IMG/VR virus record: IMGVR_UViG_3300009430_000001
Span: 32,598 to 96,597 of that record
DNA from: a virus
Strand: one strand, 5' to 3'
Length of the DNA: 64,000 bases
Part shown: positions 8,506-24,046 of the stretch, piece by piece
How the letters are laid out: each line of letters opens with the position of its first letter
How positions within the stretch are numbered: position 1 is the first letter of the stretch
Translations under genes and position numbers: made by a program
Notes under the pieces: generated by a model
The model's input: only the letters and a program-made list of their open reading frames with translations
What the model was told of the DNA's origin: nothing
The model's database searches: none

Positions 8506-8531
8506 GGGTCTCATGGCGAAGGACGCAGAAC

Positions 8532-8552
8532 AAAGGCCCCCGTGGAGGGACC
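8532..8552 (-). repeat. GC-rich leader hairpin
   Basis: Minus strand: GGTCCC, TCCA, then GGGGGCC and TTTG. It lies 18-27 bases before the start codon and is followed by GCGTCCTTC. Confidence 0.65.
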
Positions 8553-8583
8553 ACGGGAGCCGGAGGGTTCTGTGTTTAGTCGG

Positions 8584-8600
8584 ACTTAGACACAATGCGG
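8584..8600 (+). repeat. 17-base motif copy 3
   Basis: ACTTAGACACAATGCGG, between the stop at 8669 and the leader hairpin at 8532. Plus orientation, antisense to the flanking genes. Confidence 0.85.
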
Positions 8601-8668
8601 AGCATCGGCCGGGGGATCAATCGTCGGGCGGCTCCAGGACCAAGTGGAAACGAAGCCGTGACGATCAA

Positions 8669-8965
8669 TCAGCGGGAGTGTAAACGTCGTCGTCGTTGTG
8701 CGCGGTCGAGTGCTTCGCTCGTTTCCAGGATTGGAGCTTCGCCGCGCTGGATCTTTTTTCCAGCTAGCACACGCTCGAGTTGATGGCGCGGGATGCGCTT
8801 CCAGTCGTTCTCGTGTTTGACATAGAAGTCAACGCGATCGATTCGCTTTGTTCCGCGGCTGTAACGAAAGATTGACGTCTTGATCTCAATGTTGTCGATG
8901 ATGGTCTTTTGAGATTCACGCTTATCAAGCGTAATGGCCTTGAGATCGTCGAGGGTGAGTGTCAT
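8669..8965 (-). CDS. hypothetical protein, 98 aa
   Basis: The start ATG 8965 overlaps the upstream stop as ATGA (MTLTLDDLKAITLDK). Lys/Arg-rich, with a basic C-terminus (RAQRRRRLHSR) that may bind nucleic acid. Last gene of the coupled operon running from 14120 to 8669. No family recognised. Confidence 0.65.
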   Translation of the reverse strand: MTLTLDDLKAITLDKRESQKTIIDNIEIKTSIFRYSRGTKRIDRVDFYVKHENDWKRIPRHQLERVLAGKKIQRGEAPILETSEALDRAQRRRRLHSR

Positions 8966-9714
8966 GAGGCGGATTCGTCGTTGGTGTACTCCGATGTCCA
9001 ATACAGGAAGTCGTCACGCTTCTGCACGGGCATGATGATGAAGCGCAGAGACACGTCGCCCCAGGGCTTTTTGGTCTTGGACTTCATCTTTTCCCAGCTT
9101 TCTGAATTTATGCCGGAGCGGATCTCCATGGGCATGATGCTGGAGCTGAAGGCGAACTGTGGATGCTTGGCCTCCAGCTTGATGATGATCTCATTGATTA
9201 CCTTCATGTAGATCGGATCCCAGAGAATGGGCCGCAAAGCGTTCATCGAGTAGTGACAGGGGAAGATGTTATCGAATGCTTGTACGGTTGGGAATGCGTA
9301 AGTCGCTGGGATCGGCTCATGCGCCAGGCGCGCGTTCTCAAGGAAGATCGTACTGATCTTGCCTTCGTCGTTGAATGCGAGAACAGCGGCGTCATTGGAC
9401 ATCCACTTTTCGAAGACCTTGAAGTGGATCAGGAGCTCGGGGATCTCCTGGAAATCACCGGGAGTGTGATCACTGAGGCCTGCTCTCAGCGCAACATGGC
9501 CGTTGGTCGCTTCGATGTAGTAGCACTCGAGCGTGGCATCTGAGCGGATGCGCACGAATTCGAGTGCTTCTATGCCCAGGGGTTTGGCGAGCTTGGCGAT
9601 TTGTGAAGCGGCCCAAAGCAGGGCGGTGGGCAGGCGCAGCGTACCGCCGGCCGCGGAAGGAGTGTCAGGCACGGTGTGAATGACGGTGGAACCGTAGCTG
9701 ATGATGAGAATCAT
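8962..9714 (-). CDS. possible sliding-clamp-like protein, 250 aa
   Basis: ATG 9714 overlaps the previous stop as ATGA. Residues 67-78 (IEATNGHVALRA) resemble the F-x-A-T-D-G-H-R-L signature of DNA polymerase III beta subunits, and the surrounding alternating short strands are compatible with a clamp fold. At 250 residues it is shorter than bacterial beta (about 370) and closer to phage T4 gp45 (228). Only this one motif supports the idea, so I hold it loosely; otherwise unknown. Confidence 0.45.
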   Translation of the reverse strand: MILIISYGSTVIHTVPDTPSAAGGTLRLPTALLWAASQIAKLAKPLGIEALEFVRIRSDATLECYYIEATNGHVALRAGLSDHTPGDFQEIPELLIHFKVFEKWMSNDAAVLAFNDEGKISTIFLENARLAHEPIPATYAFPTVQAFDNIFPCHYSMNALRPILWDPIYMKVINEIIIKLEAKHPQFAFSSSIMPMEIRSGINSESWEKMKSKTKKPWGDVSLRFIIMPVQKRDDFLYWTSEYTNDESAS

Positions 9715-9923
9715 GGGTTTTCAAAAGTAAATTGCTTGGCAATTCCCGATTCGCCACACTCTATGCACTCGATGTAGCTGTTTTCGTTGAAGTTTAGGTC
9801 TCCTCCACACACGTCAGAGCCATTGTCATACATCAGCACGAGTGTGCTGACTTCAATGCGAAATGGCTCTTCGTTGCCGCACTTGGGGCAGCGTATGCCG
9901 GCAAGACAGTTGGTGTTGGTCAT
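9711..9923 (-). CDS. zinc-ribbon protein, 70 aa
   Basis: Two CxxC knuckles, CPKC at 12-15 and CIEC at 53-56, form a classic zinc ribbon; C39 may be additional. Coupled on both sides by ATGA overlaps. Such small ribbons may bind nucleic acid or modulate host RNA polymerase, but nothing here specifies the target. Confidence 0.8.
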   Translation of the reverse strand: MTNTNCLAGIRCPKCGNEEPFRIEVSTLVLMYDNGSDVCGGDLNFNENSYIECIECGESGIAKQFTFENP

Positions 9924-10126
9924 GAGTGGTCTTCAACGGATTTAAGGAATTCGATCGTTCGAATTTTGGGCCATGTGGCCAGTGCTGTGAGCCTGGCGGT
10001 TTCTTGGTTGTCTCCGGCTACCCATACGCGATCACGCATGGGGCAGCCGAAGACATCTTCGATCAGGACGTCGAAGACGTAGTAGGTGGTGGTTTCAGGT
10101 TTCACGGGCAAGACGCTGGTGGGCAT
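9920..10126 (-). CDS. small hypothetical protein, 68 aa
   Basis: ATG 10126, MPTSVLPVKPETTTYYVFDVLIEDVFG. Single alpha/beta unit. It overlaps the upstream gene by 32 bases in another frame and the downstream gene by ATGA. No recognised domain. Confidence 0.6.
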   Translation of the reverse strand: MPTSVLPVKPETTTYYVFDVLIEDVFGCPMRDRVWVAGDNQETARLTALATWPKIRTIEFLKSVEDHS

Positions 10127-10526
10127 AAAGCCTGTAGAATGGTTGAACGGATCTCAGGCCTCCTGCTTCTGAAATACGTTTGATAAGGCCAGAACCTCCT
10201 TTGTGCTTTTGTACTTCATGGATAGATGGGATCTCAAGCGGATAGATGTTGCAGGACTTGAGAAAGTCGTAGATTTCTTCGTAGAATCCAGTGGGATCAA
10301 GGTCTTTGTTGGGGCCGTGTCTGCCGCTGAGGTATTCTGCGGTTGGCATGTAATGCTTGGGCAGTAAATCAGGATGATGGCAGATGAGATAGAGGATCAG
10401 GGCGCAGTCGAGCTCCATGGATGGGCTGCGACGGTCGCGCTGGGCGGCCTCTTCCAGAGCCGTAATGAGATCGGCTGGTGCGGTCCAGTTGACGCGCGGC
10501 CGATTCCCGCGGTCGCCGGTGCTCAT
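10095..10526 (-). CDS. hypothetical protein, 143 aa, possible ribbon-helix-helix N-terminus
   Basis: ATG 10526 overlaps the preceding stop as ATGA. Residues about 10-50 (PRVNWTAPADLITALEEAAQRDRRSPSM) have a strand followed by two helices, as in ribbon-helix-helix DNA-binding proteins; this is suggestive only. The rest is helical with Cys and His scattered and no clear metal motif. Confidence 0.6.
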   Translation of the reverse strand: MSTGDRGNRPRVNWTAPADLITALEEAAQRDRRSPSMELDCALILYLICHHPDLLPKHYMPTAEYLSGRHGPNKDLDPTGFYEEIYDFLKSCNIYPLEIPSIHEVQKHKGGSGLIKRISEAGGLRSVQPFYRLYAHQRLARET

Positions 10527-10723
10527 TGCTTCTCCTCCGGCATCCAGGGATCGGCATCGGCGCGGGCTTCAGCTTCGGAATCGAAGGGCCCGCTCATCTC
10601 GCCGTCAGGCAGGCAGCTGGGAAAGCAGGCTTGCCAGTACCAGTCAATGTCGGAAAAGAGCGTGAATGTTTCGTAGGAGCCGAAGCTTTCACCGCTTTCG
10701 TTATGGAATTGGTAGAAGGTCAT
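10523..10723 (-). CDS. small acidic protein, 66 aa
   Basis: ATG 10723 overlaps the upstream stop as ATGA, which settles the start over the longer frame to 10783. Aromatic-rich (FYQFHNESGESFGSYETF, DIDWYWQACF) and acidic at the C-terminus (DSEAEARADADPWMPEE). Small acidic proteins of this kind can be anti-host factors, but no homology is visible. Confidence 0.6.
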   Translation of the reverse strand: MTFYQFHNESGESFGSYETFTLFSDIDWYWQACFPSCLPDGEMSGPFDSEAEARADADPWMPEEKQ

Positions 10724-10959
10724 CGTTGCGATTGCCTCCAGCGCTGGGTTTCGCCGGGATTCTCTTCGTAGAGATGCCGCCATTCGTCGGATCCACTGAC
10801 GAGGTGTTCGTCAAGCAGAATGCGAAGCGCGCAGTCGAACGCTTCACTGGCGCTCAGCTCACGGCCGTTGGGTCCCTTGATCGGGAATGTTCGGCAGTAC
10901 CGCAAGCGGCGTGCGGCGTTGTAGAGCGAAGCGGTGGGATTGGGGGTGGATAGGGTCAT
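10720..10959 (-). CDS. small hypothetical protein, 79 aa
   Basis: ATG 10959 overlaps the stop of the gene upstream as ATGA. Composition alternates a basic N-terminal third (NAARRLRYCR) with a helical middle (SASEAFDCALRILLDEHL). Function unknown. Confidence 0.6.
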   Translation of the reverse strand: MTLSTPNPTASLYNAARRLRYCRTFPIKGPNGRELSASEAFDCALRILLDEHLVSGSDEWRHLYEENPGETQRWRQSQR

Positions 10960-11363
10960 GGCAGATAGCTCTGATAGCGGTTGGCGTTCCCGACGGCGTG
11001 CTTGAGGGCTGAGGCGAATGCCTCGGCGATGGGCTGGGGTACGTTGAGCTCGAAGATGTCAACTTCGCCTTTGTCTTCGAATATGGGTTCGTGGTGCGGG
11101 CTCAGCGGTGCGCGCCAGAGTTTTTCGCCTTGCATCCAGTAAGCAAAGCCTGTTGGCTTGTGTACCAGATACGATTGCGGATCGCGGCCGGTGCAGTCTT
11201 CGTCAGGGCAGTGGTTTTGGAATTGATGAAGTTGCTTGAGGGTGAGCTCGGTGTAGACGCGGCTGCAGTGGGGGCAGTGAAAGTAGCTGCCCTTCTTGTC
11301 CATTAAGGCTATGAATCGGCTGCCAAGACGAATGTCGTTTGGCGTGATGGCGGGTTCGCTCAT
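10956..11363 (-). CDS. zinc-binding hypothetical protein, 135 aa
   Basis: C30PHC33 and C52PDEDC57 with intervening helices form a probable treble-clef or zinc-ribbon site. ATG 11363 is preferred; 11369 is in frame and adds two residues. Downstream half is alpha/beta (PQPIAEAFASALKHAVGNA). Role unknown. Confidence 0.65.
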   Translation of the reverse strand: MSEPAITPNDIRLGSRFIALMDKKGSYFHCPHCSRVYTELTLKQLHQFQNHCPDEDCTGRDPQSYLVHKPTGFAYWMQGEKLWRAPLSPHHEPIFEDKGEVDIFELNVPQPIAEAFASALKHAVGNANRYQSYLP

Positions 11364-11415
11364 GACCATGCAGTGGAGATTTCGCCGTAAGGGGCGGGGT
11401 GGTAGGTGGGGATAC

Positions 11416-11610
11416 TCACGGATTTTCTTTGGCGAGGTGTGAGCGCAAGTCGACGACGGCCCAACCGGCTTCGATGAATTCATCTCGAATCCGGTCGGCC
11501 TCTATGGAGTGACAGAGACTGCTGATTCGCTCAGAGTCGCCTTTGAACTCCATGAGTAGCGTGCAGTAGCGGCCCGTCGCGGTGGGCGGAATGATGATGA
11601 CTGTGTTCAT
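11416..11610 (-). CDS. small hypothetical protein, 64 aa
   Basis: MNTVIIIPPTATGRYCTLLMEFKGDSERISSLCHSI: a strand, a loop, then a Cys-containing helix. 19 bases follow the previous stop; 52 bases to the next start. No family recognised. Confidence 0.55.
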   Translation of the reverse strand: MNTVIIIPPTATGRYCTLLMEFKGDSERISSLCHSIEADRIRDEFIEAGWAVVDLRSHLAKENP

Positions 11611-11613
11611 GGC

Positions 11614-12054
11614 TTAGGTAGCAATGGATTCAGATCGGTTCGTTGCAGAGGCCCGAGTGGTCTTCGTAGATCGGCTCTTCGTTGTCTGCCGTCGGGTTGC
11701 CGGCCTCTTCGTCGCGCTCGGCGTCGATTTCGGCCCATTCGATCCAGATGTACGCCTGGATGTACGCGGTGCCTTCGGTGCGCTGGATTTCTGGGTTGTC
11801 CGGGACGCTGATGCAGCGTCCTTCGAGGGCTCGAGCTCGATTGATGAGCTCCTGGTCGCTGATGTCGCTGCGGATCTGGTTGGCCATTGGCGGGCGAGGC
11901 GGTCAGAGAGTCGATGAATGAAGCAGCCAAATGCGTATCTGGCTGCGATGGTGAAGGCGATGGCATGAGCCAGGCCGCGGGCCAGGGCCTCGAGCCGATG
12001 CTCGAGATCCCAGGTGCGGTAGGCTCGCCACGCCTCGAGGGGCGTGAGTTGCAT
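11614..12054 (-). CDS. possible overlapping gene with a hydrophobic helix near the N-terminus
   Basis: ATG 12054 opens MQLTPLEAWRAYRTW, then a helix with a hydrophobic stretch (ARGLAHAIAFTIAARYAFGCF). Its first 55 codons fill the otherwise empty 11888-12054 and look genuine, but the frame then continues through the whole of 11630-11887 as Ser/Thr/Arg-rich sequence that looks like a shadow. Either a long overlap, a short membrane protein whose stop was lost, or not a gene. Confidence 0.3.
   Translation of the reverse strand: MQLTPLEAWRAYRTWDLEHRLEALARGLAHAIAFTIAARYAFGCFIHRLSDRLARQWPTRSAATSATRSSSIELEPSKDAASASRTTQKSSAPKAPRTSRRTSGSNGPKSTPSATKRPATRRQTTKSRSTKTTRASATNRSESIAT
11630..11887 (-). CDS. 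small acidic hypothetical protein, 85 aa
   Basis: ATG 11887, MANQIRSDISDQELINRARALEG, with an acidic C-terminal half (EWAEIDAERDEEAGN). The other two frames here are Ser/Arg/Pro-rich shadows, so this frame is the likely coding one. Function unknown. Confidence 0.6.
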   Translation of the reverse strand: MANQIRSDISDQELINRARALEGRCISVPDNPEIQRTEGTAYIQAYIWIEWAEIDAERDEEAGNPTADNEEPIYEDHSGLCNEPI

Positions 12055-12059
12055 GGCGA

Positions 12060-12518
12060 TCAGATGAGGTTGAGCAGGGTGAACCAGGAGTCCGGGGCGT
12101 CCGGTTCTACGGAATCGCCGTCGGGATTTTCGATGACGGAATCGAGCGACCATTGGTCGAACTCAGCTGATGCTGGGATCGGCATCCATTGGCCTTTCCA
12201 GTACATGCCGAAGATGCGACCTGCTTCGGTTTTGAAGCAGGCCACATCGCCACTGGTGTGCAGTGGCCTGTTGGTTTCTGGATCACGAAGCCGGGGCTTG
12301 CCGGCTACGATGCGGCTGAGGCGAACAATCGGCTTCCCGGTGTTCGGGTTCCGTCGTCCGGTGGGGCGAATCGTGGGCTCGGGCTGGAATTGCTCGGCGT
12401 CGCCGTAAAGGTTGCGGTACTCGAGCATGAGTCTCTCGCCGATGGTGGGCGTGCGCTTGTCAAGAAGTTGCTGGATTTCTTTTGTCATTTCGTTGCTAGC
12501 TGTTTCTTTTGTGTTCAT
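12060..12518 (-). CDS. hypothetical protein, 152 aa
   Basis: ATG 12518 overlaps the upstream stop as ATGA. MNTKETASNEMTKEIQQLLDKRTPTIGERL starts with a helical segment, then beta-rich sequence with basic loops (RPTGRRNPNTGKPIVRLSRIVAGKPRLRD). No family recognised. Confidence 0.65.
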   Translation of the reverse strand: MNTKETASNEMTKEIQQLLDKRTPTIGERLMLEYRNLYGDAEQFQPEPTIRPTGRRNPNTGKPIVRLSRIVAGKPRLRDPETNRPLHTSGDVACFKTEAGRIFGMYWKGQWMPIPASAEFDQWSLDSVIENPDGDSVEPDAPDSWFTLLNLI

Positions 12519-12748
12519 TGGTCGTCTTTGAACAGCATATGAGCAGGAGGCTCTGGCTTTGTGCGCCAGAGCTTGCTGTGAGTGGCTTGATCGATCAAGC
12601 CAATCCTGTAGTGGCGGAGGATCCAGTTATCCCACAGCTCGCGAAGCTCGATTGTGGGCTTGAGACCGCGTTGCAAGAGAAACTCGAGATATTCCAGGAA
12701 GAATTTCTCGACTTCTTCAGCGGTCATCGGGGTGGAGTGAAGGTTCAA
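12515..12748 (-). CDS. small helical protein, 77 aa
   Basis: Alpha-helical (MTAEEVEKFFLEYLEFLLQRGLKPTIELRELWDNWIL) and charged. Both ends overlap their neighbours as ATGA, the hallmark of this operon. In-frame ATG at residue 8 is an alternative start. Confidence 0.6.
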   Translation of the reverse strand: MNLHSTPMTAEEVEKFFLEYLEFLLQRGLKPTIELRELWDNWILRHYRIGLIDQATHSKLWRTKPEPPAHMLFKDDQ

Positions 12749-12999
12749 GGGTTTTGTCGCTCCAGTCGGATGGGTGATTCGGAGGAGAAGACGCAGCAGA
12801 TGACAGCGCCACAGCCGTTCTCGTCGTTCATGCGTTCCTCGATCTCTTTGGCGGTGTGGCCGTTCTCTTCGAGTAGGTGCCGAAGCATGCTTGTTGTTGC
12901 TTCGTCTTCGGTGCAGGAACCGAACACATGGCCGGTGTCTTCGTCGTCGAACAACACACGGCCCGTGACGGCCCAGTAGCGGATGGGCTTGTCAAACAT
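12745..12999 (-). CDS. small hypothetical protein, 84 aa
   Basis: ATG 12999 overlaps the previous stop as TAATG, which selects this start over the longer frame to 13059. MFDKPIRYWAVTGRVLFDDED then a helix (STSMLRHLLEENGHTAKEI-like) and a Cys pair (VICCVF). Function unknown. Confidence 0.6.
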   Translation of the reverse strand: MFDKPIRYWAVTGRVLFDDEDTGHVFGSCTEDEATTSMLRHLLEENGHTAKEIEERMNDENGCGAVICCVFSSESPIRLERQNP

Positions 13000-13208
13000 T
13001 AGGATTCGGGATAGAAGAAGCTGATGTCGCTGCCTTGCTGCACAAGCAGCTCTTTGCATTCATCATCGGAGATGGCGTTTGTTTCCGAGGTGTAGGCGCC
13101 GGAGTAATCTCCTTCGACTGCTTCTCGCCAGATTCCAGCTGGGGTCATGTCATCGGGGATGGGATCCTGGCTCAGGATTTCCATCGTGATCGTGGTGAGG
13201 TAGGGCAT
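12999..13208 (-). CDS. small acidic protein, 69 aa
   Basis: ATG 13208, MPYLTTITMEILSQDPIPDDMTPAG, acidic throughout. The first 59 bases overlap the 3' end of the DUF6915-like gene in another frame. The stop and the next ATG share TAATG. Confidence 0.5.
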   Translation of the reverse strand: MPYLTTITMEILSQDPIPDDMTPAGIWREAVEGDYSGAYTSETNAISDDECKELLVQQGSDISFFYPES

Positions 13209-13563
13209 GGCTTTCTTGTGTAAGCTTGGAGTGGAGGAGCTTGGCTCGCTGGCTGGCCCAGCGCGGGCAGCGCAGGAGATCGACGTAGTCCTGGAGCGTG
13301 GGCACCATGCCCAGGTCCTCCAGGACGTGTTGCTCGGCGAGCAGGGAGGTCGGTACGCGCCGGCCTCGGGAGTTGGTGATCGTGTCACCAAACAGGGCAA
13401 CCGCATCGGCGATGCCCTGGGTGTGATGGGCCAACATGCGATGCATGAGGCGATCAGTGCCAGCGCGGCCGCGGTCCATCCAGCGATGCAGCGCCATGTA
13501 GTCATCGGGGTCACCCCCGAATGCATTGGCGCTGCTGATGGCGTGGTAGCTGTAATGGCTCAT
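13150..13563 (-). CDS. DUF6915-like protein, 137 aa
   Basis: MSHYSYHAISSANAFGGDPDDYMALHRWMD, then RMLAHHTQGIADAVALFGDTI, then LLAEQHVLEDLGMVPTLQDYVDLL. The His-rich N-terminus, the HH...G motif and the EQHVxEDLGxxPT signature match what I remember of DUF6915, a phage and plasmid family of unknown function. Start ATG 13563 overlaps the upstream stop as ATGA. Confidence 0.75.
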   Translation of the reverse strand: MSHYSYHAISSANAFGGDPDDYMALHRWMDRGRAGTDRLMHRMLAHHTQGIADAVALFGDTITNSRGRRVPTSLLAEQHVLEDLGMVPTLQDYVDLLRCPRWASQRAKLLHSKLTQESHALPHHDHDGNPEPGSHPR

Positions 13564-14120
13564 AGTGTTATGGTCGAGTAGTCTTGGGTGATGACGTTGT
13601 TGTTGTGGTTGATCTCGATGCTGACGCCATGTTCGATGCCGTCCTCGAGCTCTTCCTCGGTGGCTTGGCGAATGATGATTTCACCGAATCCACCTTCATT
13701 GATCTCGAAGCCCGGGTGGTAGCCGTAGGCCACATCCCAGGCGATGGCGTCAAGCGCCTCGCTGATGCTGCTGGGATCGGGAGCGACCACGGGTTTCCAG
13801 CACATGGCTTTGCTGTCGTATTGCTGTCCCACGGTTCGCTGATAATTAAATTCAGCGGGCATGTCTTCATCGAGGAGCTGGTTGAGTTCTTTTAAGATTT
13901 CGGTGTTGCACTCGGCGGGTTCGACGGTGATGTCGGAAATATCGCCGGAATCGCCTGAGCCCTCGTACGTGATCGTGATCTTGTGGACACGTTCGTCCTT
14001 GGAGCGCAGGTAGAGAAAGATGCCCTTGAGAAGGAGGCATCCCTTCTGCGCTTGATCCTTGAGTTGTTTTTGGTACTCGATGATTTCGGCGAGAACTTCG
14101 TTGATGTTGATGGGGTTCAT
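13560..14120 (-). CDS. DUF6878-like protein, 186 aa
   Basis: The segment ITITYEGSGDSGDISDI and the later DAIAWDVAYGYHPGFEINEGGFGEIIIR, followed by a His/Asn-rich strand, resemble DUF6878 proteins, which commonly occur in phages and mobile elements; biochemical role unknown. First gene of the coupled operon, after an HNH gene. Start ATG 14120. Confidence 0.65.
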   Translation of the reverse strand: MNPININEVLAEIIEYQKQLKDQAQKGCLLLKGIFLYLRSKDERVHKITITYEGSGDSGDISDITVEPAECNTEILKELNQLLDEDMPAEFNYQRTVGQQYDSKAMCWKPVVAPDPSSISEALDAIAWDVAYGYHPGFEINEGGFGEIIIRQATEEELEDGIEHGVSIEINHNNNVITQDYSTITL

Positions 14121-14137
14121 GGGATTGGTGCGGGTGG

Positions 14138-14836: not shown

Positions 14837-14839
14837 GGT

Positions 14840-15232
14840 TTATAGGTCAATGATTTTACCTTCAAGGGTAATGCGTTGCAGTTTGTTGCACTGCAGTCGA
14901 CCAACAAGGTTTTGTTCACTGTCAAACCTAAGGCGGCACAGTTGCTCGACGGCATTTTCGCCGGTTATGAGCTGTAGCCGCCAAAGCAAGCAGCGTTGTT
15001 GGCTGGTTATGAGCGTCCAGCGGGGATACTCTTGCCCTTTGGACAGCTCATTCCAGTATGCCATTGCGGATTCAAGCGAGTCTTGCTCGACTCGCCTGAC
15101 TTCGCGGAATAGCTCTTTGGCGGCAGGTTCCCATTTGTAGCGATCGAAGGTAGGCCGCTGTTGGCTTAGCGGCACTAGCTCAACAGTGGAGCCGGCCTCG
15201 GTGGGGGTGGAAGCGGTGGAGATGATGGTCAC
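14840..15232 (-). CDS. hypothetical protein, 130 aa
   Basis: GTG 15232 (MTIISTASTPTEAG) is preferred because the longer frame to 15337 reads through the leader hairpin at 15261-15281. Mid-region helical (KELFREVRRVEQDSLESAMAYW). The leader holds a TGTCCCC element. Function unknown. Confidence 0.6.
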   Translation of the reverse strand: MTIISTASTPTEAGSTVELVPLSQQRPTFDRYKWEPAAKELFREVRRVEQDSLESAMAYWNELSKGQEYPRWTLITSQQRCLLWRLQLITGENAVEQLCRLRFDSEQNLVGRLQCNKLQRITLEGKIIDL

Positions 15233-15260
15233 GGGTGTCCATGAGAGGGGACACAGAACG

Positions 15261-15281
15261 AAGGCCCCCGTGGAGGGGGCC
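15261..15281 (-). repeat. GC-rich leader hairpin
   Basis: Minus strand: GGCCCCC, TCCA, CGGGGGCC, TTCG; 28 bases before the GTG start and 22 bases after the stop of the gene upstream. Weak T run, so termination is uncertain. Confidence 0.65.
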
Positions 15282-15303
15282 ATGGAGCGGAGGGGCTTGC
15301 TGG

Positions 15304-15831: not shown

Positions 15832-15858
15832 TGGTTGGTGAGTGAAGGACATGAAAAC

Positions 15859-15885
15859 GAGGACCCCGCCTGATGGCGAGGGCTC
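15859..15885 (-). repeat. GC-rich leader hairpin
   Basis: Minus strand: GAGCCCTCGCC, ATCA, GGCGGGGTCCTC, then GTTTTC. It lies between motif copy 4 and ATG 15831, followed by TGTCCTTC. Confidence 0.65.
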
Positions 15886-15903
15886 GTGGTGGGCATAAGC
15901 CCG

Positions 15904-15920: not shown

Positions 15921-15948
15921 CACGCAGTGGACGCGCCGTCACATTGCG

Positions 15949-16116: not shown

Positions 16117-16146
16117 GGAGTGTTCCATGAAGTGGGCAGCAAACCG

Positions 16147-16166
16147 AGGCCCCCGTGGAGGGGACC
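16147..16166 (-). repeat. GC-rich leader hairpin
   Basis: Minus strand: GGTCCCC, TCCA, CGGGGGCC, TCGG. 19-31 bases before the start of 15949-16116. Confidence 0.6.
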
Positions 16167-16177
16167 AGAGGCTGGGG

Positions 16178-16645: not shown

Positions 16646-16669
16646 GGTCAGATGGAAGGGCAATGAGCC

Positions 16670-16690
16670 AAGGCCCCCGGGGAGGGGCCA
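16670..16690 (-). repeat. GC-rich leader hairpin
   Basis: Minus strand: GGCCCCTCCCCGGGGGCC, TTGG; stem almost perfect. Followed by TGCCCTTC and then ATG 16645. Confidence 0.65.
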
Positions 16691-16705
16691 ATGGGGGCAA
16701 TGATT

Positions 16706-17170: not shown

Positions 17171-17192
17171 TGCGAAATCAGCAGAACACATG

Positions 17193-17216
17193 AAAAAGGC
17201 CCCCGCGGAGGGGGCC
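17193..17216 (-). terminator. GC-rich hairpin with T run
   Basis: Minus strand: GGCCCCCTCCGCGGGGGCC followed by TTTTTCA. 22 bases before ATG 17170. No minus-strand gene lies just upstream, since the adjacent gene is on the plus strand, so it acts in the leader itself. Confidence 0.65.
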
Positions 17217-17231
17217 ATGGAGTCGGAGGGT

Positions 17232-17238: not shown

Positions 17239-17255
17239 CATCCAGGAGTTGAACA

Positions 17256-18434: not shown

Positions 18435-18964
18435 ATGGTCCCGTTGGGGTAGAAGATGTTGCTCTCGCTTGCAGTGGGGAACACCCTTGCCAGGTGATCA
18501 GCACCGATCACCAGTGATTCTGGGTGTTGAAACCTGCTTGCGAAGTCAAGGTAGACGTAAACGGCTTGCAACGGGAAGCCGGGAATGGAAGGAGCTGACT
18601 CGAGGCCAAGCTCGGCCTCGATCTGGGCTTGACGCATGCCAGGCCGACTGACGTTGCCGGTGGCCTGAAGGACTTGGCTGACTCGTCGTTGCAGGTGGTA
18701 GGCGTAGACGAGGATCTCGTCTGCAATTGCTGCGATGGTGGCGTAGTCAGCCTTGATTGAGGCGAAGTATGCCTCTTCTGCGTCGCTCAGTTCGTCGTCT
18801 TCTGGCTGGGTGTGAGCAAGGAGCTCAGGCCAGCCGAAGGGGCCACCTTCTCCTTCAGGAAGAGTGAAGTGGCTCTCGGTATGCGCTGTGCGCAGAAATT
18901 CTGCTGCGCCTTGGGGGTTGATGTGAGCGAGGTCGAGGAAATGCGTACGGTTGAAGGGGGCCAT
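18431..18964 (-). CDS. hypothetical protein, 177 aa; paralogue of 16706-17170
   Basis: MAPFNRTHFLDLAHINPQGAAEFLRTAHTES, GFPLQAVYVYLDFASR and IFYPNGTI align with the gene at 16706-17170. It carries an extra acidic middle segment (QPEDDELSDAEEAYF). Leader hairpin at 18989-19008. Start ATG 18964. Confidence 0.65.
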   Translation of the reverse strand: MAPFNRTHFLDLAHINPQGAAEFLRTAHTESHFTLPEGEGGPFGWPELLAHTQPEDDELSDAEEAYFASIKADYATIAAIADEILVYAYHLQRRVSQVLQATGNVSRPGMRQAQIEAELGLESAPSIPGFPLQAVYVYLDFASRFQHPESLVIGADHLARVFPTASESNIFYPNGTI

Positions 18965-18988
18965 GGAGAAGATGCAACAGCATCGAAC

Positions 18989-19008
18989 AAAGGCCCCCGA
19001 GGAGGGCA
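18989..19008 (-). repeat. GC-rich leader hairpin (imperfect)
   Basis: Minus strand: GCCCTCC/GGGGGCC stem with a short loop, then TTTGTTCG. 24 bases before ATG 18964. Confidence 0.55.
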
Positions 19009-19020
19009 AGGGAGCGTGTG

Positions 19021-19027
19021 TACTCTG
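19021..19027 (+). promoter_or_regulatory. TACTCTG box, putative -10 element
   Basis: TACTCTG 24 bases before ATG 19052; first element of the plus-strand island 19.05-20.12 kb. Confidence 0.4.
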
Positions 19028-19051
19028 TGGGACAGCAGATGAGGGACCGCA

Positions 19052-19252
19052 ATGATTGGCAGGCTTGCTGTGGGAGCATTGCTTGGCGCTGCAGGCGGTG
19101 GCCTGCTGGGGACGATCCCGGGAGTGCTGGCGCAGAACAATGTCGGAATTGATTTGGGCCCAATGGGCGCCTGGGGCTATAGCTTGGATCCCGTTAGCGG
19201 AAATGTAGTGTACACCGGCAGAGGGCCGGGTGGATTCAGTGAGCTCACTTAA
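19052..19252 (+). CDS. small membrane-type protein, 66 aa
   Basis: MIGRLAVGALLGAAGGGLLGTIPGVLAQNN: a glycine-zipper hydrophobic helix at about 5-27, then a short polar tail. No signal-peptidase site is obvious. First of three plus-strand genes in this island, all small and hydrophobic; likely a virion or lysis-associated membrane protein, but lysis is untested. Confidence 0.6.
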   Translation: MIGRLAVGALLGAAGGGLLGTIPGVLAQNNVGIDLGPMGAWGYSLDPVSGNVVYTGRGPGGFSELT

Positions 19253-19258
19253 TCGACA

Positions 19259-19477
19259 GTGCCGGGATTTCATCCAACCGTAGGCGCCTTGTCTGGCGCT
19301 TTGGTTGGCGCGATGGCCTTGGCAGCGCTTGAGATAATTGATCAGGCTTATGACAAAGAGGGTTGGGATGCGGCGAAGCAGCGGGTTGATGAATTCATCA
19401 ATAATCTGCATCGCCAGAGGGCTGAGCGCCAAGGGGCTGAACGGCCTAGGCGGATGATCCGCATTCAGCAGGCTTGA
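19259..19477 (+). CDS. small protein with N-terminal hydrophobic helix, 72 aa
   Basis: GTG start 19259 (MPGFHPTVGALSGALVGAMALAALEIIDQ): glycine-zipper helix at about 8-27, then an amphipathic, Arg-rich C-terminus (RQRAERQGAERPRRMIRIQQA). Six bases after the previous stop. Same class as 19052-19252. Confidence 0.55.
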   Translation: MPGFHPTVGALSGALVGAMALAALEIIDQAYDKEGWDAAKQRVDEFINNLHRQRAERQGAERPRRMIRIQQA

Positions 19478-19478
19478 G

Positions 19479-19485
19479 TACCCTG
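19479..19485 (+). promoter_or_regulatory. TACCCTG box, putative -10 element
   Basis: TGAg-TACCCTG directly after the stop of the previous gene, 22 bases before ATG 19508. Confidence 0.5.
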
Positions 19486-19507
19486 GGGGCACAGGCTTCT
19501 TCTTTCC

Positions 19508-20119
19508 ATGGCAGTCAAGAGATACGCCGGTAGTAGCAATGTCGTGGATGACATCTTGGCGGCTGTTGGCGACAATGCATATACTAGGGCGTGGAGTGAC
19601 GCCATGGGAAATGCGATACGGCCTGTGGATAGAATGATTGCTTCTGACTCTGATCGGTTTGCGTCTTCCTTGAAAGAAATGGAAGGGCTGATTAACCGTG
19701 GAGTCGAGGAAGCGAAAGGGCAGGGGTTATCGCAGGCTGCAGGGGAGCAGCTGCTTGCAAGGTTGAATCGGCTTGATCCTAGCGGTGCTCTCGCTGAAAA
19801 CATGGGAGCTGGGCTGAGTCAGGCAGTGGAAAGAGCAAAGCGGAATGGGTCTTCGGTGGGGAGTGAATTTGCGGGTTTGGTATTTGATGCTCGAGAAGAT
19901 CTGAAACCGGAGTTGATCGATGCGTATCTGAAGCAGCATCCGCCCTCTGATGTTCACATGATGACCAAGGCGGGCGGATTGCTTCATGCAGCAGCAGGCA
20001 TGGCGCCTTCTGCGTATGGCATCCCGGCTGCGGGAGCAGGTCTTGCTGCGTGGGGCCTGCATGATTATCTGCAGGCCCAGCAGCAGGCGGAGAAGGAGTC
20101 TCAGCTTCCAATGAGCTGA
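19508..20119 (+). CDS. virion-type protein with C-terminal hydrophobic segment, 203 aa
   Basis: ATG 19508. Helical body with charged repeats (DSDRFASSLKEMEGLINRGVEEAKGQG) and a Gly/Ala-rich helix near the C-terminus (GGLLHAAAGMAPSAYGIPAAGAGLAAWGL). Same plan as the glycine-zipper proteins after 24 kb. It converges with the minus-strand gene at 20124. No family recognised. Confidence 0.65.
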   Translation: MAVKRYAGSSNVVDDILAAVGDNAYTRAWSDAMGNAIRPVDRMIASDSDRFASSLKEMEGLINRGVEEAKGQGLSQAAGEQLLARLNRLDPSGALAENMGAGLSQAVERAKRNGSSVGSEFAGLVFDAREDLKPELIDAYLKQHPPSDVHMMTKAGGLLHAAAGMAPSAYGIPAAGAGLAAWGLHDYLQAQQQAEKESQLPMS

Positions 20120-20123
20120 GGGC

Positions 20124-20450
20124 TTAGCAGTGATTGAGCTCTTCTGCGAGGAGCTGGTTGTCCAGTAAGGCTGCCTGGATCTCGTCGGGAGACATGTTGT
20201 CAGCTCCTCTACTGCGGTTGAGATCAGCGGCTTCGGGAATGATGTTACTCCAGTCGTCGGTGAGCTCGGGGCAGTTGTGTTGGCTGATGACGTGAGAAAG
20301 ATCTCGCTGCTCCCAGAATTCTTTGATTTCATGGGGGTCATCGAGTTCTTCAGGCGTAACAGCCAGCATGTCGGAGAAGTCTCCTCCGTAGGGCTCGGCT
20401 CGACTGTCGAGGTATGAGGTGAGATTGAATGGTAGGTTCATCGTGGTCAA
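20124..20450 (-). CDS. hypothetical acidic protein, 108 aa
   Basis: ATG 20450 overlaps the stop of 20447-21334 as ATGA (MTTMNLPFNLTSYLD). Acidic (PEELDDPHEIKEFWEQRDL). Function unknown; cotranscribed with the gene upstream. Confidence 0.6.
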   Translation of the reverse strand: MTTMNLPFNLTSYLDSRAEPYGGDFSDMLAVTPEELDDPHEIKEFWEQRDLSHVISQHNCPELTDDWSNIIPEAADLNRSRGADNMSPDEIQAALLDNQLLAEELNHC

Positions 20451-21334
20451 GAGGAGAAGAAGGCTGTTATGTTGTAAGTCGTGGTGTTGGTGATTATTCT
20501 TGCCAAGGTGACGGCATTAGAGTTGGTGAATTTTGTTGATTGTTTTTGATGTGGTTTTAGCAACAGGGTGTTGACATCTAGGGCGTCTTCGAGCAAGAGC
20601 TGGGGAAAGAAGCCGTGGAGTGGGTTGTTGATGTATTTTCTGTGCCATTGAATGGACTTGCGGGGAGCAGCTAAAGATGATATAGCTAAAGAATTGTCTT
20701 TGAATTCGTTTAGGATGTTTTGGTAGTCTGCGACAAGATGTCTGTTGGTGATTTCCTTTGAAGAAATAAATGCTATTTCTTCGTCTTCCAGTTGGGTGAT
20801 AAGTCGCTTTCTGCCTTCGATCCTCTGGGTTAGAGGTGAGCTGATGATGCCAAGTGAGGCAAATGCCAAAATGCCCGTTGCAGCATCGCCCAAGAAGGCT
20901 GGAAAGTCGTATTGCTTTGCTCTTTTAAGTCGGCTTTCTTTGATTCGTAGTTCGTTGTAGTAGATTTCGTTGAAGCGGGTGATTTTGGTTAAAATGGAAT
21001 GAGCGTCTTTGGCAATGCGCTGATTCTTGAGGATTTTACGTTCAAGATTTGCATGTAGTGATCCCGGCTGTATGATGTCATATAGCCGGGTTTGTCCTGA
21101 TGGTTTTTGATAGACCTGGGCAAATAGGTGATCACCTGCCCTGTATTGACAGAACAGGTCAGCAGCCTCTGATCGATGTTGTGACCGTCTGTCGAAGCAG
21201 GTGATTTCAGTTGGTGGTCCGTTTTCAGGGATGAGGGTCAGGCGCCTGCCAAGTCGGAATGGGATGACTTCAGCGACGGCGCCACTGATGAGTCTGGTAG
21301 TAGCGAAAATGTTTGGATTTTGAAAAGTAGTCAT
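20447..21334 (-). CDS. hypothetical protein, 295 aa, AT-rich
   Basis: ATG 21334, MTTFQNPNIFATTRLISGAVAEVIPF. A Lys/Arg-rich middle (RKILKNQRIAKDAHSILTKI, NELRIKESRLKRAKQYDF) is followed by a possible membrane-proximal segment (FLGDAATGILAFASLGIISSP). Base composition is visibly lower in GC than the surroundings, suggesting a separate origin. Upstream hairpin 21386-21412 is a strong terminator. Confidence 0.7.
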   Translation of the reverse strand: MTTFQNPNIFATTRLISGAVAEVIPFRLGRRLTLIPENGPPTEITCFDRRSQHRSEAADLFCQYRAGDHLFAQVYQKPSGQTRLYDIIQPGSLHANLERKILKNQRIAKDAHSILTKITRFNEIYYNELRIKESRLKRAKQYDFPAFLGDAATGILAFASLGIISSPLTQRIEGRKRLITQLEDEEIAFISSKEITNRHLVADYQNILNEFKDNSLAISSLAAPRKSIQWHRKYINNPLHGFFPQLLLEDALDVNTLLLKPHQKQSTKFTNSNAVTLARIITNTTTYNITAFFSS

Positions 21335-21385
21335 GTTGGCGATGGGGTGAAAGATTGAGCGAGCGTCAGCGAGCTGGCGCTAATG

Positions 21386-21412
21386 AAAAAAACCACCCCG
21401 TAGTGGGGTGGC
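21386..21412 (-). terminator. rho-independent terminator
   Basis: Minus strand: GCCACCCCACTACGGGGTGG followed by TTTTTTT. It separates 21437-21847 from 20447-21334. Confidence 0.85.
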
Positions 21413-21436
21413 TTTTGAGTCATGAAGGCTCTGGAC

Positions 21437-21847
21437 TCACTTGGCGCGACGCAGCGCGTTCCCTTCCGGGTAGCGTTTGTCAGCCAGATGGTCCGAGAAG
21501 GCGTAAACGCCAATGCCAGACCGCTGAACGGTCTTGTTCTCCTCGTCTCGGGTGACGACGCCGAGACTTAGTCCGCAGCCGTTTTCAACGGGAGACTCGA
21601 ACGAGATGAACAGAGGGCCTGCCTCGTGAAAGACGCCGTCGGCGTTCTCGAGGGTGATGCGGGCGTCCTTACGGGCAGCCGCAGCGGACTCCTTGCGGCA
21701 CTCGGGAGAACCAGCAACGGGAGCACTGGCGGACTCCTTCTTGGAGTCCTGGGGCGCCGAGCCATTGCCATTACTGGCGGGGCCTTCGACCTTCCTTTCG
21801 GTGGTCTCGGCACTGGTCTCGACGGTTTGGGTGGCGGCTTCAGCCAT
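21437..21847 (-). CDS. hypothetical protein, 136 aa, disordered N-terminus
   Basis: Residues 1-65 are Ala/Ser/Glu-rich and low-complexity (VETSAETTERKVEGPASNGNGS), then a beta-rich domain (GPLFISFESPVENGCGLSLGVVTRDEENK). Leader 51 bases long with hairpin at 21901-21922 and a TGCCCTC element. Start ATG 21847. Confidence 0.65.
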   Translation of the reverse strand: MAEAATQTVETSAETTERKVEGPASNGNGSAPQDSKKESASAPVAGSPECRKESAAAARKDARITLENADGVFHEAGPLFISFESPVENGCGLSLGVVTRDEENKTVQRSGIGVYAFSDHLADKRYPEGNALRRAK

Positions 21848-21900
21848 GATGGATGAACTTGGGATTGTGTGGTGCCCATCTCCACTGAGGGCATAAAAAC

Positions 21901-21922
21901 AAGGCCCCCGTGGAGGGGCCTT
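21901..21922 (-). repeat. GC-rich leader hairpin
   Basis: Minus strand: AAGGCCCC, TCCA, CGGGGGCCTT, GTTTTTATGCCCTC. Both the hairpin and the following element are close to consensus. Confidence 0.7.
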
Positions 21923-21937
21923 TGGATGAGGAGGGGA

Positions 21938-22096
21938 TCAGCGCATGACGCGCTGAATGACTGGAGACGGCACTGGCCGGTCTAGTTGACCGAATGTGCC
22001 GTATGCGGAGCGGAGCTCGCGCCATTGCACGATGGTCATGCAGATGACCATACCTGCAATGGTGACGCAGGCATGAGGGGTGTAATCGCGATTCAT
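21938..22096 (-). CDS. small membrane protein, 52 aa
   Basis: Read directly: ATG 22096 gives MNRDYTPHACVTIAGMVICMTIVQW, a single hydrophobic helix at about 8-24, then a short polar tail ending VIQRVMR. Too short for most gene callers. It follows the usual hairpin and TGCCCTTC leader at 22124-22149, which supports it as a gene. Confidence 0.6.
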   Translation of the reverse strand: MNRDYTPHACVTIAGMVICMTIVQWRELRSAYGTFGQLDRPVPSPVIQRVMR

Positions 22097-22123
22097 GGTG
22101 AATCACGCGAAGGGCATAAAAGG

Positions 22124-22149
22124 AAGGCCCCCGATTACTCGAGGGCCTT
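22124..22149 (-). repeat. GC-rich leader hairpin
   Basis: Minus strand: AAGGCCCTCGAGTAATCGGGGGCCTT, followed by CCTTTTATGCCCTTC. 28 bases before ATG 22096. Confidence 0.7.
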
Positions 22150-22153
22150 GAGG

Positions 22154-22327
22154 TTAGATATTGGAATTGATGGCGATCAATTCTTCGCATTCTTGATGAA
22201 TGCGATCAAGGATTTCCATAAGATCTGGATCTTGATCCATCTCCCATGCAATCCAGAAATGATTGCGGGAATCCTGTTCAAAGGATTCAAGGGCGGCCTG
22301 AGCGGCCTCGGAGTATGGAGCATCCAT
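22154..22327 (-). CDS. small acidic protein, 57 aa
   Basis: Read directly: ATG 22327 shares TGATG with the stop of the gene upstream. MDAPYSEAAQAALESFEQDSRNHF, rich in Glu/Asp and predicted helical. Coupled to 22327-22530. Function unknown. Confidence 0.55.
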   Translation of the reverse strand: MDAPYSEAAQAALESFEQDSRNHFWIAWEMDQDPDLMEILDRIHQECEELIAINSNI

Positions 22328-22530
22328 CAGAGGAGCTCCAGGACGATTTCATCTATGGCGTCCTGAAGGGAGGCGCCAGCCTTCATGCGGGAATCGACAT
22401 CCCGAGCCACGTGGCCCAGGTTGTCATAGCCCATCATGAAGACGGATGAAAGAGGCTGATACGCCTCAATGGCCAGCGCGATGCGCTGGAGATGGAGCGG
22501 CGCGGCGCTCCAGGAAGGATTGAGAGCCAT
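22327..22530 (-). CDS. small hypothetical protein, 67 aa
   Basis: ATG 22530, MALNPSWSAAPLHLQRIALAIEAYQ, predicted helical (KAGASLQDAIDEIVLELL). Its leader carries the best copy of the module: hairpin 22554-22576, then GTGTCCTTC, then 10 bases to ATG. Confidence 0.6.
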   Translation of the reverse strand: MALNPSWSAAPLHLQRIALAIEAYQPLSSVFMMGYDNLGHVARDVDSRMKAGASLQDAIDEIVLELL

Positions 22531-22553
22531 GGCTCTATTGAAGGACACTGATG

Positions 22554-22576
22554 AAAGGCCCCCGTGGAGGGGCCTT
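22554..22576 (-). repeat. GC-rich leader hairpin
   Basis: Minus strand: AAGGCCCC, TCCA, CGGGGGCCTTT, then CATCAGTGTCCTTC before ATG 22530. Confidence 0.75.
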
Positions 22577-22582
22577 GTGGGG

Positions 22583-22819
22583 CTAGCCGTAGTTGGCTGG
22601 GAGTTCAACGTCTTTGGCGAGGATCTCGTGGAAGAGATCGTCGGCCTGAGGTGTGAACTCAGTGCCTTCACGGCGTTGATCGAGCACTTGCTCGAAGGTG
22701 AGTGGGGAGTCGCACGGCATGAGTGGTGCCGTGCGGATGATGGGAACGTCCCACATGTCGTGGAGCGATCCCATGGAGTCCTCCATGGTGTAGGAGGACA
22801 TGAAGAATTGAGCTTGCAT
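22583..22819 (-). CDS. small hypothetical protein, 78 aa
   Basis: ATG 22819, MQAQFFMSSYTMEDSMGSLHDMW; Met-rich N-terminus and acidic C-terminus (QADDLFHEILAKDVEL). Leader hairpin at 22846-22869 followed by TGTCCCTC. Function unknown. Confidence 0.6.
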   Translation of the reverse strand: MQAQFFMSSYTMEDSMGSLHDMWDVPIIRTAPLMPCDSPLTFEQVLDQRREGTEFTPQADDLFHEILAKDVELPANYG

Positions 22820-22845
22820 GATGCTGCGCTCGAGGGACAGTAAAC

Positions 22846-22869
22846 AAAGCCCCCCGTGGAGGGGGCCTT
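22846..22869 (-). repeat. GC-rich leader hairpin
   Basis: Minus strand: AAGGCCCCCTCCACGGGGGG and CTTT, followed by GTTTACTGTCCCTC. Confidence 0.7.
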
Positions 22870-22881
22870 GTGGCGATGGAG

Positions 22882-23055
22882 CTACTCGAGCTCTGCAAGC
22901 CACATGGATTCCATGTGATGGCCAATGAGCATTGCCGCAGCATAGTCAGGGTCTGTGCTGGGCGGAATGTCAGTGTTGTGGCGAAGTCTTGCACGCTCGA
23001 TTGCTTGATTGAGTGAGTTGATCATCCATGAGTGATCAACGAGTGAGATTGTCAT
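22882..23055 (-). CDS. small hypothetical protein, 57 aa
   Basis: ATG 23055, MTISLVDHSWMINSLNQAIERARLRHNTD. Helical, ends MESMWLAELE. Leader hairpin at 23083-23101, then GTGTCCTTC as in 22327-22530, with nearly identical spacing. Function unknown. Confidence 0.55.
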   Translation of the reverse strand: MTISLVDHSWMINSLNQAIERARLRHNTDIPPSTDPDYAAAMLIGHHMESMWLAELE

Positions 23056-23082
23056 TGCTGATGCAATTGAAGGACACTGATT

Positions 23083-23101
23083 AAAGGCCCCCGCGGAGGC
23101 C
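23083..23101 (-). repeat. GC-rich leader hairpin
   Basis: Minus strand: GGCCTCCGCGGGGGCCTTT, then AATCAGTGTCCTTC before ATG 23055. Confidence 0.7.
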
Positions 23102-23252
23102 AATGCCGGCTCCAGAGAGGGTTTGCCGGCCAACTCCTGCGCCTGAAATTGCCTCCAGGGGGCAAAGTGTAATGACCGGGGGTAATTGTGAGACTGCTTG
23201 CTATACTAGCCGTCGCAGTTTGATATACCCCCGGGGTGTAAGTGTGGGACTT

Positions 23253-23269
23253 CCGCATTGTGTCTAAGT
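23253..23269 (-). repeat. 17-base motif copy 5 (only minus-strand copy)
   Basis: ACTTAGACACAATGCGG read on the minus strand, immediately after the TAG of the possible gene at 23270-23692; the arrangement CTAG-ACTTAGACACAATGCGG is the same as after the HNH gene at 2818. Confidence 0.8.
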
Positions 23270-23692
23270 CTAGCCAAAGCGAAAGATCCCTGTGGTACCA
23301 ACGGGTCTGGGGCCTGTGGGTATAGCTGAATAGCTGGATGCATGGCTGTATGTCGACATGCGCCGCTGGTCGCGGCAGCAGTCGTATTGAATGTGGAGAT
23401 GGGCTGATGGATGGGTGAGATCCCTTGCAGCGACTGGGATCTCGAGGAATATGCGCCCGGTGCCGCACCGTCTGGGCGGTATGCGGCGGGGCTTATGAAG
23501 GCTTACGTGCGTTTGCTGTAGATGTGCACAGGGGGGCACTAGCAGCCGAGGTAGCACGTGACGCTTATGAGGACGCATGCACGTGAGCTGCAGATGCACA
23601 CGGGGGCATTGGCAGCTGATGATGCGCATGGAGCTGATGCAGCATTGGTATGCTGATGATTCATTTGCTTTCATGCGAGCGGAAGCGAGCAT
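23270..23692 (-). CDS. possible Cys/His-rich protein with a duplicated segment, 140 aa
   Basis: An ATG at 23692 opens 140 codons ending in TAG at 23270. The hairpin at 23705-23728 lies 12 bases upstream, the position leader hairpins take before other minus-strand genes. The composition is odd (high Cys, His, Arg and Pro). Two segments of CP-x-V/A-HLQ-x-T followed by HK-x-R repeat about 33 residues apart, matching direct repeats at 23521-23549 and 23593-23619. It may equally be non-coding; codon bias does not look like the neighbours. Confidence 0.3.
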   Translation of the reverse strand: MLASARMKANESSAYQCCISSMRIISCQCPRVHLQLTCMRPHKRHVLPRLLVPPCAHLQQTHVSLHKPRRIPPRRCGTGRIFLEIPVAARDLTHPSAHLHIQYDCCRDQRRMSTYSHASSYSAIPTGPRPVGTTGIFRFG

Positions 23693-23704
23693 GGGGAGCA
23701 AATG

Positions 23705-23728
23705 AAAAAAGAGTCCCCGTAGGGACTC
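23705..23728 (-). terminator. rho-independent terminator
   Basis: Minus strand: GAGTCCCTACGGGGACTC followed by TTTTTT, directly after the stop of 23736-23999. Confidence 0.85.
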
Positions 23729-23735
23729 TGGTGCA

Positions 23736-23999
23736 CTACTTGGCGTAGATGCAGACGCGGGCATTGCCCGCCTTAGATTTGATGACCTTTCCGAAGGCGT
23801 CAGGCGCCTCCTCGTCTGGCCCGAAGCCAGACAGGACGTGCACGCCGATGAGGGAAGCCAAGAACTCTTCGGCCTTGACTTCAGACCCGAGGGCCTGAGC
23901 AAGCCTGGCCTTGAACTTCTTGGTGAAGCCCAAGTTACCAAGCCAAAGTACGTCCTTGGTGTCGGTGGAGGCGTTGGCCTGAGTGGTGGCGTTAGCCAT
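23736..23999 (-). CDS. hypothetical protein, 87 aa
   Basis: ATG 23999, MANATTQANASTDTKDVLWLGNLGFTKKF. Short Thr/Ala-rich arm, then a helix-strand domain (KARLAQALGSEVKAEEFLASLIGVHVL) ending VCIYAK. Hairpins at both ends. Function unknown. Confidence 0.65.
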   Translation of the reverse strand: MANATTQANASTDTKDVLWLGNLGFTKKFKARLAQALGSEVKAEEFLASLIGVHVLSGFGPDEEAPDAFGKVIKSKAGNARVCIYAK

Positions 24000-24029
24000 G
24001 TGTCGCTACTGCGAACTACAGCAATCAAA

Positions 24030-24046
24030 GGTCCCCGTGGAGGGAC
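24030..24046 (-). repeat. GC-rich leader hairpin
   Basis: Minus strand: GTCCCTCCACGGGGACC, TTTG; 31 bases before ATG 23999. Confidence 0.6.

Follow-up and report, generated by a model that had tools for sequence, protein, structure and literature searches.

A repeated hairpin leader before fifteen minus-strand genes of an S-EIV1-related virus

Little is known about early-gene control in cyanophages outside the T4-like and T7-like groups. T4-type phages reportedly carry PeSL cassettes (early promoter plus stem-loop; attributed to Arbiol et al. 2010), which are thought to help gene shuffling. In class I transcriptional pausing, the hairpin precedes a pyrimidine-G step by about 10-11 nt. General descriptions of such hairpin-stabilised pauses, of the his and trp leader type, are available (PMC11087558, PMC6336406). 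The archaeal virus HF2 has repeats that contain AT-rich promoter motifs (PMC8707807), and PMC6847405 cites Mutsuda and Sugiura (2006) for S1-dependent initiation at cyanobacterial rbcS without a Shine-Dalgarno (SD) sequence. Here, we report a hairpin module repeated in a 64,000-nucleotide stretch of viral DNA from IMG/VR virus record IMGVR_UViG_3300009430_000001: a GC-rich hairpin is followed, past a 9-nt spacer, by Y-G-Y (Y, pyrimidine; hereafter YGY). One short leader reused before 15 genes would offer a handle on pausing, attenuation or SD-less ribosome loading as a shared control.

The whole stretch, referred to as the window, covers bases 32,598-96,597 of the 96,597-base record (61% GC); positions are those of the window unless the record is named. 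The left-hand 32.6 kb was also scanned, so that the whole 96.6-kb record is covered. Our evidence base is this one metagenomic record and few independent relatives. The large protein 37521-39773 has a single relative in the phage collection, in Synechococcus phage S-EIV1 (49% identity), and the TerL proteins of the record and S-EIV1 are 44% identical; judged by these two similarities, the virus is a relative of the freshwater cyanophage S-EIV1. Gene calling relied on a home-made codon-score method, so that the start codons are predictions. The minus-strand genes are probably early, as judged from their small size, their ORFan character and the placement of late-type structural genes on the plus strand.

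Copies of the module and their placement

Fifteen copies, all on the minus strand, lie within 4243-24054 (covariance model R2, E-values 3e-13 to 2e-5; R2 was built from the same 15 window copies that it then scores). Hairpin scans, the repeat finder (a 34-nt family with 11 copies and a 23-nt family with 13) and R2 concur on this number, and R2 found no further copies above noise in the rest of the record or in S-EIV1. The typical core is GGCCCC(C)-TCCNC-GGGGGCC with a T-rich 9-nt spacer and then YGY. An earlier note, made from the letters of this DNA, had described a repeated hairpin before at least 14 minus-strand genes within 8532-24046. The hairpins are where that note placed them, far beyond chance by the repeat families and the R2 E-values, and the count of genes is borne out by 15 copies before 15 genes; two copies fall outside that interval, at 4243-4284 and 7890-7935.

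YGY is present at positions 10-12 after the hairpin in all 15 copies (alignment A2); the script counted 14, and the remaining copy, at 24,030, was recovered once a 2-nt error in its anchor was corrected. Among the other hairpins of the record, 35 of 523 (6.7%) have YGY at +10 to +12. We also considered YG at +10 as a general property of terminators, which was ruled out by its occurrence at +10/+11 behind one of 19 E. coli terminators. The longer form YGYCC occurs in 11 copies, and the full TGYCCYTC, which the earlier note had put behind the hairpin, in six (23086, 22849, 22557, 22126, 16672 and 15861) and is a tendency only. A conserved 3' element thus exists, but it is the YGY; because this is invariant among the copies, the view that they are hairpins with no conserved 3' element fails.

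In 12 copies the end of the hairpin is 26-31 nt from the start codon; for the other three this distance is 55, 55 and 60 nt (anchors of 22,126 and 24,030 corrected), i.e., there is no broad spread over the 20-55 bases proposed earlier. In all three long leaders the TG(Y) element opens a second hairpin, TGCCC/GGGCA in two of them and GTGCTGC/GCAGCGC in the third. The distance to the upstream stop, in contrast, varies from 6 to more than 1000 nt: eight copies are 6-32 nt and three are 50-107 nt behind a same-strand stop, and for four (24046, 23101, 19007 and 17216) the 600 nt upstream contain no same-strand gene. Tightly packed genes, e.g., 8669-14836, have no copy. Because the distance to the start is tight, that to the upstream stop is variable and packed genes lack it, the module belongs with the downstream gene and is not simply the terminator of the upstream one. 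The earlier note had reached the same view from the copy at 17193, which indeed faces a predicted plus-strand gene (17298-18434); the 50-107 nt gaps of three copies and the same architecture in two related contigs add to its basis.

If the copies nevertheless served the upstream genes as ordinary intrinsic terminators, compacted and copied, the pyrimidine-rich part would be the leader of the next gene. A T-rich stretch comes after the GC stem (5.2 T in the first 8 positions in the window), the eight copies close behind a same-strand stop are placed as terminators would be, a simple scan marks most copies as terminator-like, and the same hairpin with a U-run forms a plain terminator-like end in the unrelated contigs L061 and L067. 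We consider this reading unlikely: the position is tied to the downstream start and not to the upstream stop, four copies have no nearby same-strand gene to terminate, YGY is invariant here and rare behind other hairpins, and several relatives have U-poor spacers (TTGCACTGG, TTGAGCAAC) together with separate strong terminators. The U-tail score is 2.9 for leaders in the window and 2.5 in the relatives, versus 4.2 for plain terminators of the same phages, whose U-runs are longer; plain intrinsic terminators stand at unit ends at 23710..23729 and 21393..21411 (minus). Going by their sequence, several window copies could still terminate to some degree.

Hairpin folding, promoter signals and translation signals

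Stems are 6-11 bp long in most copies, with -8.6 to -17.5 kcal/mol in the window folds. In the copies at 22126, 15861 and 7907 the usual loop is replaced by self-complementary upper stems (A/U+GUAA, CC/GG+AUCA and CA/UG+UCA, respectively), and the lower stem and the YGY spacing are kept despite this change. The summed fold energy is -357 kcal/mol for the sense strand versus -328 kcal/mol for the other strand. In some copies the flanks add an outer stem, CAGAAC/GTTCTG at 8561 and ACTACAG/CTGTAGT at 24046, and in the relatives GGCACC/GGTGCC and CCCCAAC/GTTGGGG; flanks pair better within copies than between copies, with 505 of 20,000 permutations as good. Since upper stems change yet pair, the sense strand folds better and flanks pair within their own copy, hairpin formation appears to be under selection, with the outer stem as an optional part. 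On these comparisons, a leader acting at the RNA level is well supported.

The hairpin-keeping insertions at 22126, 15861 and 7907 suit RNA or single-stranded DNA and not a duplex site, and they bear on the least probable of the alternatives that we weighed, a DNA promoter for the host or a phage polymerase with its start at the invariant YG (Y at -1, G at +1) and 5' leaders of 16-21 nt. The YG fits a start-site preference, and promoter activity was demonstrated for the repeated intergenic elements of the halovirus HF2 (PMC8707807). Nothing else here accounts for early promoters, because sigma-70 matches in the region show no excess (9 versus 8.5 expected from shuffles). On the other side, the copies have no consistent -10-like element, and three have another conserved motif (GCATTGTGTCTAAGTC) about 20 nt upstream. 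A hairpin promoter of the N4 virion type would call for an RNA polymerase encoded by the phage itself. The search for a T7-type RNA polymerase found none, although its control was also silent: PF00940 had no match in G000, G002 or S-EIV1, nor in the control genomes, and the contigs may be incomplete; for the large proteins Pfam gave no match to a polymerase.

The motif GCATTGTGTCTAAGTC has seven window copies versus 0.31 expected (2817, 4301, 8583, 15903, 23255, 25329 and 44100). Those at 4301-4316, 8583-8598 (minus; upstream of the 8561 hairpin) and 15903-15918 are the three that stand about 20 nt before a leader hairpin, where a promoter or operator role is possible. Other copies adjoin the HNH gene 2137-2817 or are close to a group I intron, and the motif may also be an insertion target.

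Regarding translation, none of the 15 leader genes has anti-SD pairing of -4 kcal/mol or better, versus 48% of plus-strand genes (p 2e-4). The lack of AGGAGG that the earlier note pointed out is therefore real, but it is not special, other early minus-strand genes being mostly SD-poor. The 26-31 nt behind the hairpin are 67% pyrimidine, and the predicted accessibility is 0.57 for leader genes versus 0.42 for late genes (p 2e-4).

Individual leaders, relatives and other elements of the record

All leaders are on the minus strand, and the E-values given with them are those of R2. The leader 24000..24054 (gene 23736-23999; 1.9e-9; hairpin 24046-24031), one of those with an outer stem, heads its unit with no same-strand gene upstream. 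It is followed by 23056..23110 (gene 22882-23055; 8.4e-7), whose nearest upstream same-strand gene is 634 nt off, by 22820..22873 (gene 22583-22819; 6.4e-13) and 22531..22581 (gene 22327-22530; 2.7e-13), and by 22097..22153 (gene 21940-22096; 2.1e-9), which has the variant upper stem and GUAA loop (CCCTCGA-GTAA-TCGGGGG). The long leader 21848..21927 (gene 21437-21847; 1.4e-12) has TGCCC/GGGCA as its second hairpin. Further along, 18965..19016 (gene 18431-18964; 1.5e-7) has 1.1 kb without a same-strand gene upstream, and 17171..17222 (gene 16706-17170; 1.3e-11) adjoins a divergent predicted gene; 16646..16696 (gene 16178-16645; 1.2e-12) and 16117..16172 (gene 15949-16116; 1.6e-9) come next. The leader 15832..15890 (gene 15304-15831; 1.8e-5), 62 nt downstream of the preceding gene, combines the CC/GG upper stem with an outer stem ACGAG/CTCGT. 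For 15233..15287 (gene 14840-15232; 1.1e-12) the start is a GTG by frame, i.e., the GTG at 15232 is in frame and the ATG at 15242 is not. The leader 8506..8561 (gene 8221-8505; 8.5e-12) has an 11-bp stem in addition to its outer stem and is 107 nt downstream of the preceding gene. The two remaining copies are long leaders, 7847..7935 (DUF932 gene 6866-7846; 6.6e-6), with the CA/TG upper stem and TGCCC/GGGCA, and 4205..4284 (gene 3284-4204; 2.9e-12), with GTGCTGC/GCAGCGC. The products of the minus-strand genes 16706-17170 (MTAPFDRTNLLLMAKLDP...) and 18431-18964 (MAPFNRTHFLDLAHINP...) look like paralogues by eye, which suggests that genes were duplicated along with their leaders.

The earlier note had proposed to search the genome and its relatives with a covariance model, and besides the 15 window copies there are copies in two related contigs. 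These two (G001 and G002, both from metagenome 3300035670) were the only ones beyond this record in an IMG/VR scan with the full pattern. TerL of G001 is 57% identical to that of the record, and G002 has many proteins in common with it; G001 has about 5-7 copies and G002 about 8-12, and those that were aligned have the same YGY at +10. Since G001 and G002 are close to each other in places, together they amount to hardly more than a single independent lineage. A gene distantly related to 21437-21847 (about 43% over 54 residues) bears the leader in the record, G001 and G002, and a search for relatives by way of this gene led to the same two contigs only. In G002 a distant homologue of 3284-4204 is also preceded by a leader-like element (14.6 bits).

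Relaxed and wider patterns added only chance matches among viral contigs. A wider spread of the module was considered and rejected: the GC hairpin alone, in unrelated phage contigs, is mostly intragenic and lacks YGY. An origin from the host was rejected as well, the pattern scan of 84,980 species genomes giving four matches, none cyanobacterial and apparently by chance. Rfam at its curated threshold has no family for the module; the best sub-threshold matches in the window have E 0.4 or worse, and the matches above threshold in the window are two group I introns only (44289-44516 and 45313-45597, plus). The introns share their region with a homologue of the S-EIV1 gene 60859-62010, and the second is flanked on both sides by matches to that gene.

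S-EIV1 has a repeated hairpin leader of its own, GTCCYRAGYATGACNYTAAA, with six minus-strand copies (S-EIV1, L006: 25919, 30513, 33602, 38809, 39528 and 43012). From its first base to the ATG there are 47-58 nt, and five of the six ATGs are annotated starts. Like the module, it is a hairpin that recurs in front of minus-strand genes, and its distance to them is similar; unlike the module, its hairpin is AU-containing and has no U-tail, is not terminator-like, and the two have no sequence similarity. A 16-mer of this leader has 34 viral matches, about the chance level for a 16-mer. As far as sequence can tell, the comparison suggests that hairpin leaders are a habit of the S-EIV1-related group while their sequence changes. 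S-EIV1 also has two more leader families of two copies each, and none of its leader families is in Rfam.

Two other GC hairpins, GGCCCCCTGGATAGGGGGCT and GGCCGTCTGCATAGGCGGCC, are located left of the window at record 12823 and 14103 (plus), 40-45 nt upstream of late genes, that of GGCCGTCTGCATAGGCGGCC being a tail-fibre gene. CTGCATAG is common to both sites, and the 14103 hairpin has TGC at +10. The record also encodes a sigma-70 factor of 432 aa (L003:18187-19485, minus, record coordinates left of the window), of which regions 1.2, 2, 3 and 4 all exceed the Pfam cut-offs. A motif TACCCTGAG (TAYMCTG, -45 to -12) is found before 12 of 106 scored genes versus 0.5 expected. Its sites precede late genes, e.g., record 3801, 19479, 70118, 80492 and 87095 (the last three at window about 37500, 47880 and 54480), and it is possibly the -10 element used by the phage sigma factor.

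Proposed role and comparison with known systems

The reading that we prefer, at a little short of an even chance, is that the module is a duplicated 5' RNA leader, one for each separately started early gene, with pausing and SD-less ribosome loading as its putative functions. Early genes in need of a separate start would each have the leader, which would be absent where genes are packed or overlapping. In the nascent RNA the GC-rich arm would fold into the hairpin, which together with the Y|G 10 nt behind it may hold the host RNA polymerase in a class I-like pause at which, at most, some transcripts would terminate. After the polymerase has resumed, the 26-31 nt before the AUG would offer ribosomes a pyrimidine-rich place to land independently of SD pairing, through S1 or perhaps a phage factor acting at the leader. 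Many short early genes would thereby be expressed evenly and at matched levels, and genes with their own leaders would be easy to reshuffle.

Several observations weigh against this. The copies at 8561, 17216 and 4281, among others, would pass as terminators. SD poverty does not tell genes with a leader apart from early genes lacking one (p 0.21), and the accessibility of 0.57 for leader genes compares with 0.54 for other minus-strand genes (p 0.5). The S1 or standby site suggested by the earlier note is thus in keeping with the contrast to late genes but not with that to leaderless early genes, which leaves the landing-stretch idea weak; the termination and regulator binding that the note also put forward are candidate roles. 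In the long leaders YGY is base-paired, so that it cannot serve as a single-stranded S1 site in every copy. A hairpin by itself would not require a 3' arm and loop as constant as those seen, and the outer-stem signal falls short of significance when the window is taken by itself (p 0.20), with p 0.017 in the relatives.

The fixed Y|G at +10 resembles the geometry of a hairpin-stabilised pause, and it would also suit a conditional terminator or attenuator at which the host polymerase is stopped before early genes and passes only with the help of a phage antiterminator that loads at the pause. The hairpin occurs between genes but also in the 5' region of genes that come first in their unit, and the phage encodes transcription factors of its own, the sigma-70 factor being an example. 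We regard this possibility as improbable, slightly more so than the plain terminators discussed above: no antiterminator was identified, the U-tails are moderate, and the genes with leaders are presumably early ones, for which little phage protein would yet be present.

A broader proposal, doubtful but in our judgement less so than those rivals, is that S-EIV1-related cyanophages have an exchangeable hairpin leader whose sequence differs by phage, whose distance to the start is nearly constant and which is read by a dedicated factor (an antiterminator or a ribosome/S1 route), i.e., an undescribed form of coordinated early-gene control. The leader itself, if its role as a shared control point is borne out, would also provide a compact expression module for cyanobacterial genetics.

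Compared with known systems, the module shares with intrinsic terminators a GC hairpin and a T-rich stretch, but its U-tail scores lower, its YGY is fixed and its placement follows the downstream start; the end of a transcribed gene is not where 4 of the 15 copies lie, having no same-strand gene within 600 nt upstream. Like the HF2 intergenic repeats, it is a short sequence repeated between virus genes with positions conserved among relatives; those repeats contain AT-rich promoter motifs, whereas the module has a GC hairpin core at a fixed distance to the start and a promoter role is only a candidate. With the class I pause it has in common that a Y(-1)G(+1) step follows the hairpin at 10-12 nt in 15 of 15 copies; it differs in being present in many copies before unrelated genes, and a pause at this step is a suggestion from the geometry. 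The rbcS-type leaders are similarly SD-less and belong to the cyanobacterial setting of the host; S1 is a known need of rbcS and a candidate one here, where the YGYCC is sometimes paired. The PeSL cassettes belong to an unrelated phage, and the module is unlike them in its fixed YGY and in having no identifiable early promoter, no sigma-70-type match being found inside the leaders. Both are repeated stem-loops before small early genes in a plastic region, here as 15 copies upstream of 15 presumably early genes, and in this respect the module resembles a known kind of element, i.e., the repeated regulatory cassettes of phages.

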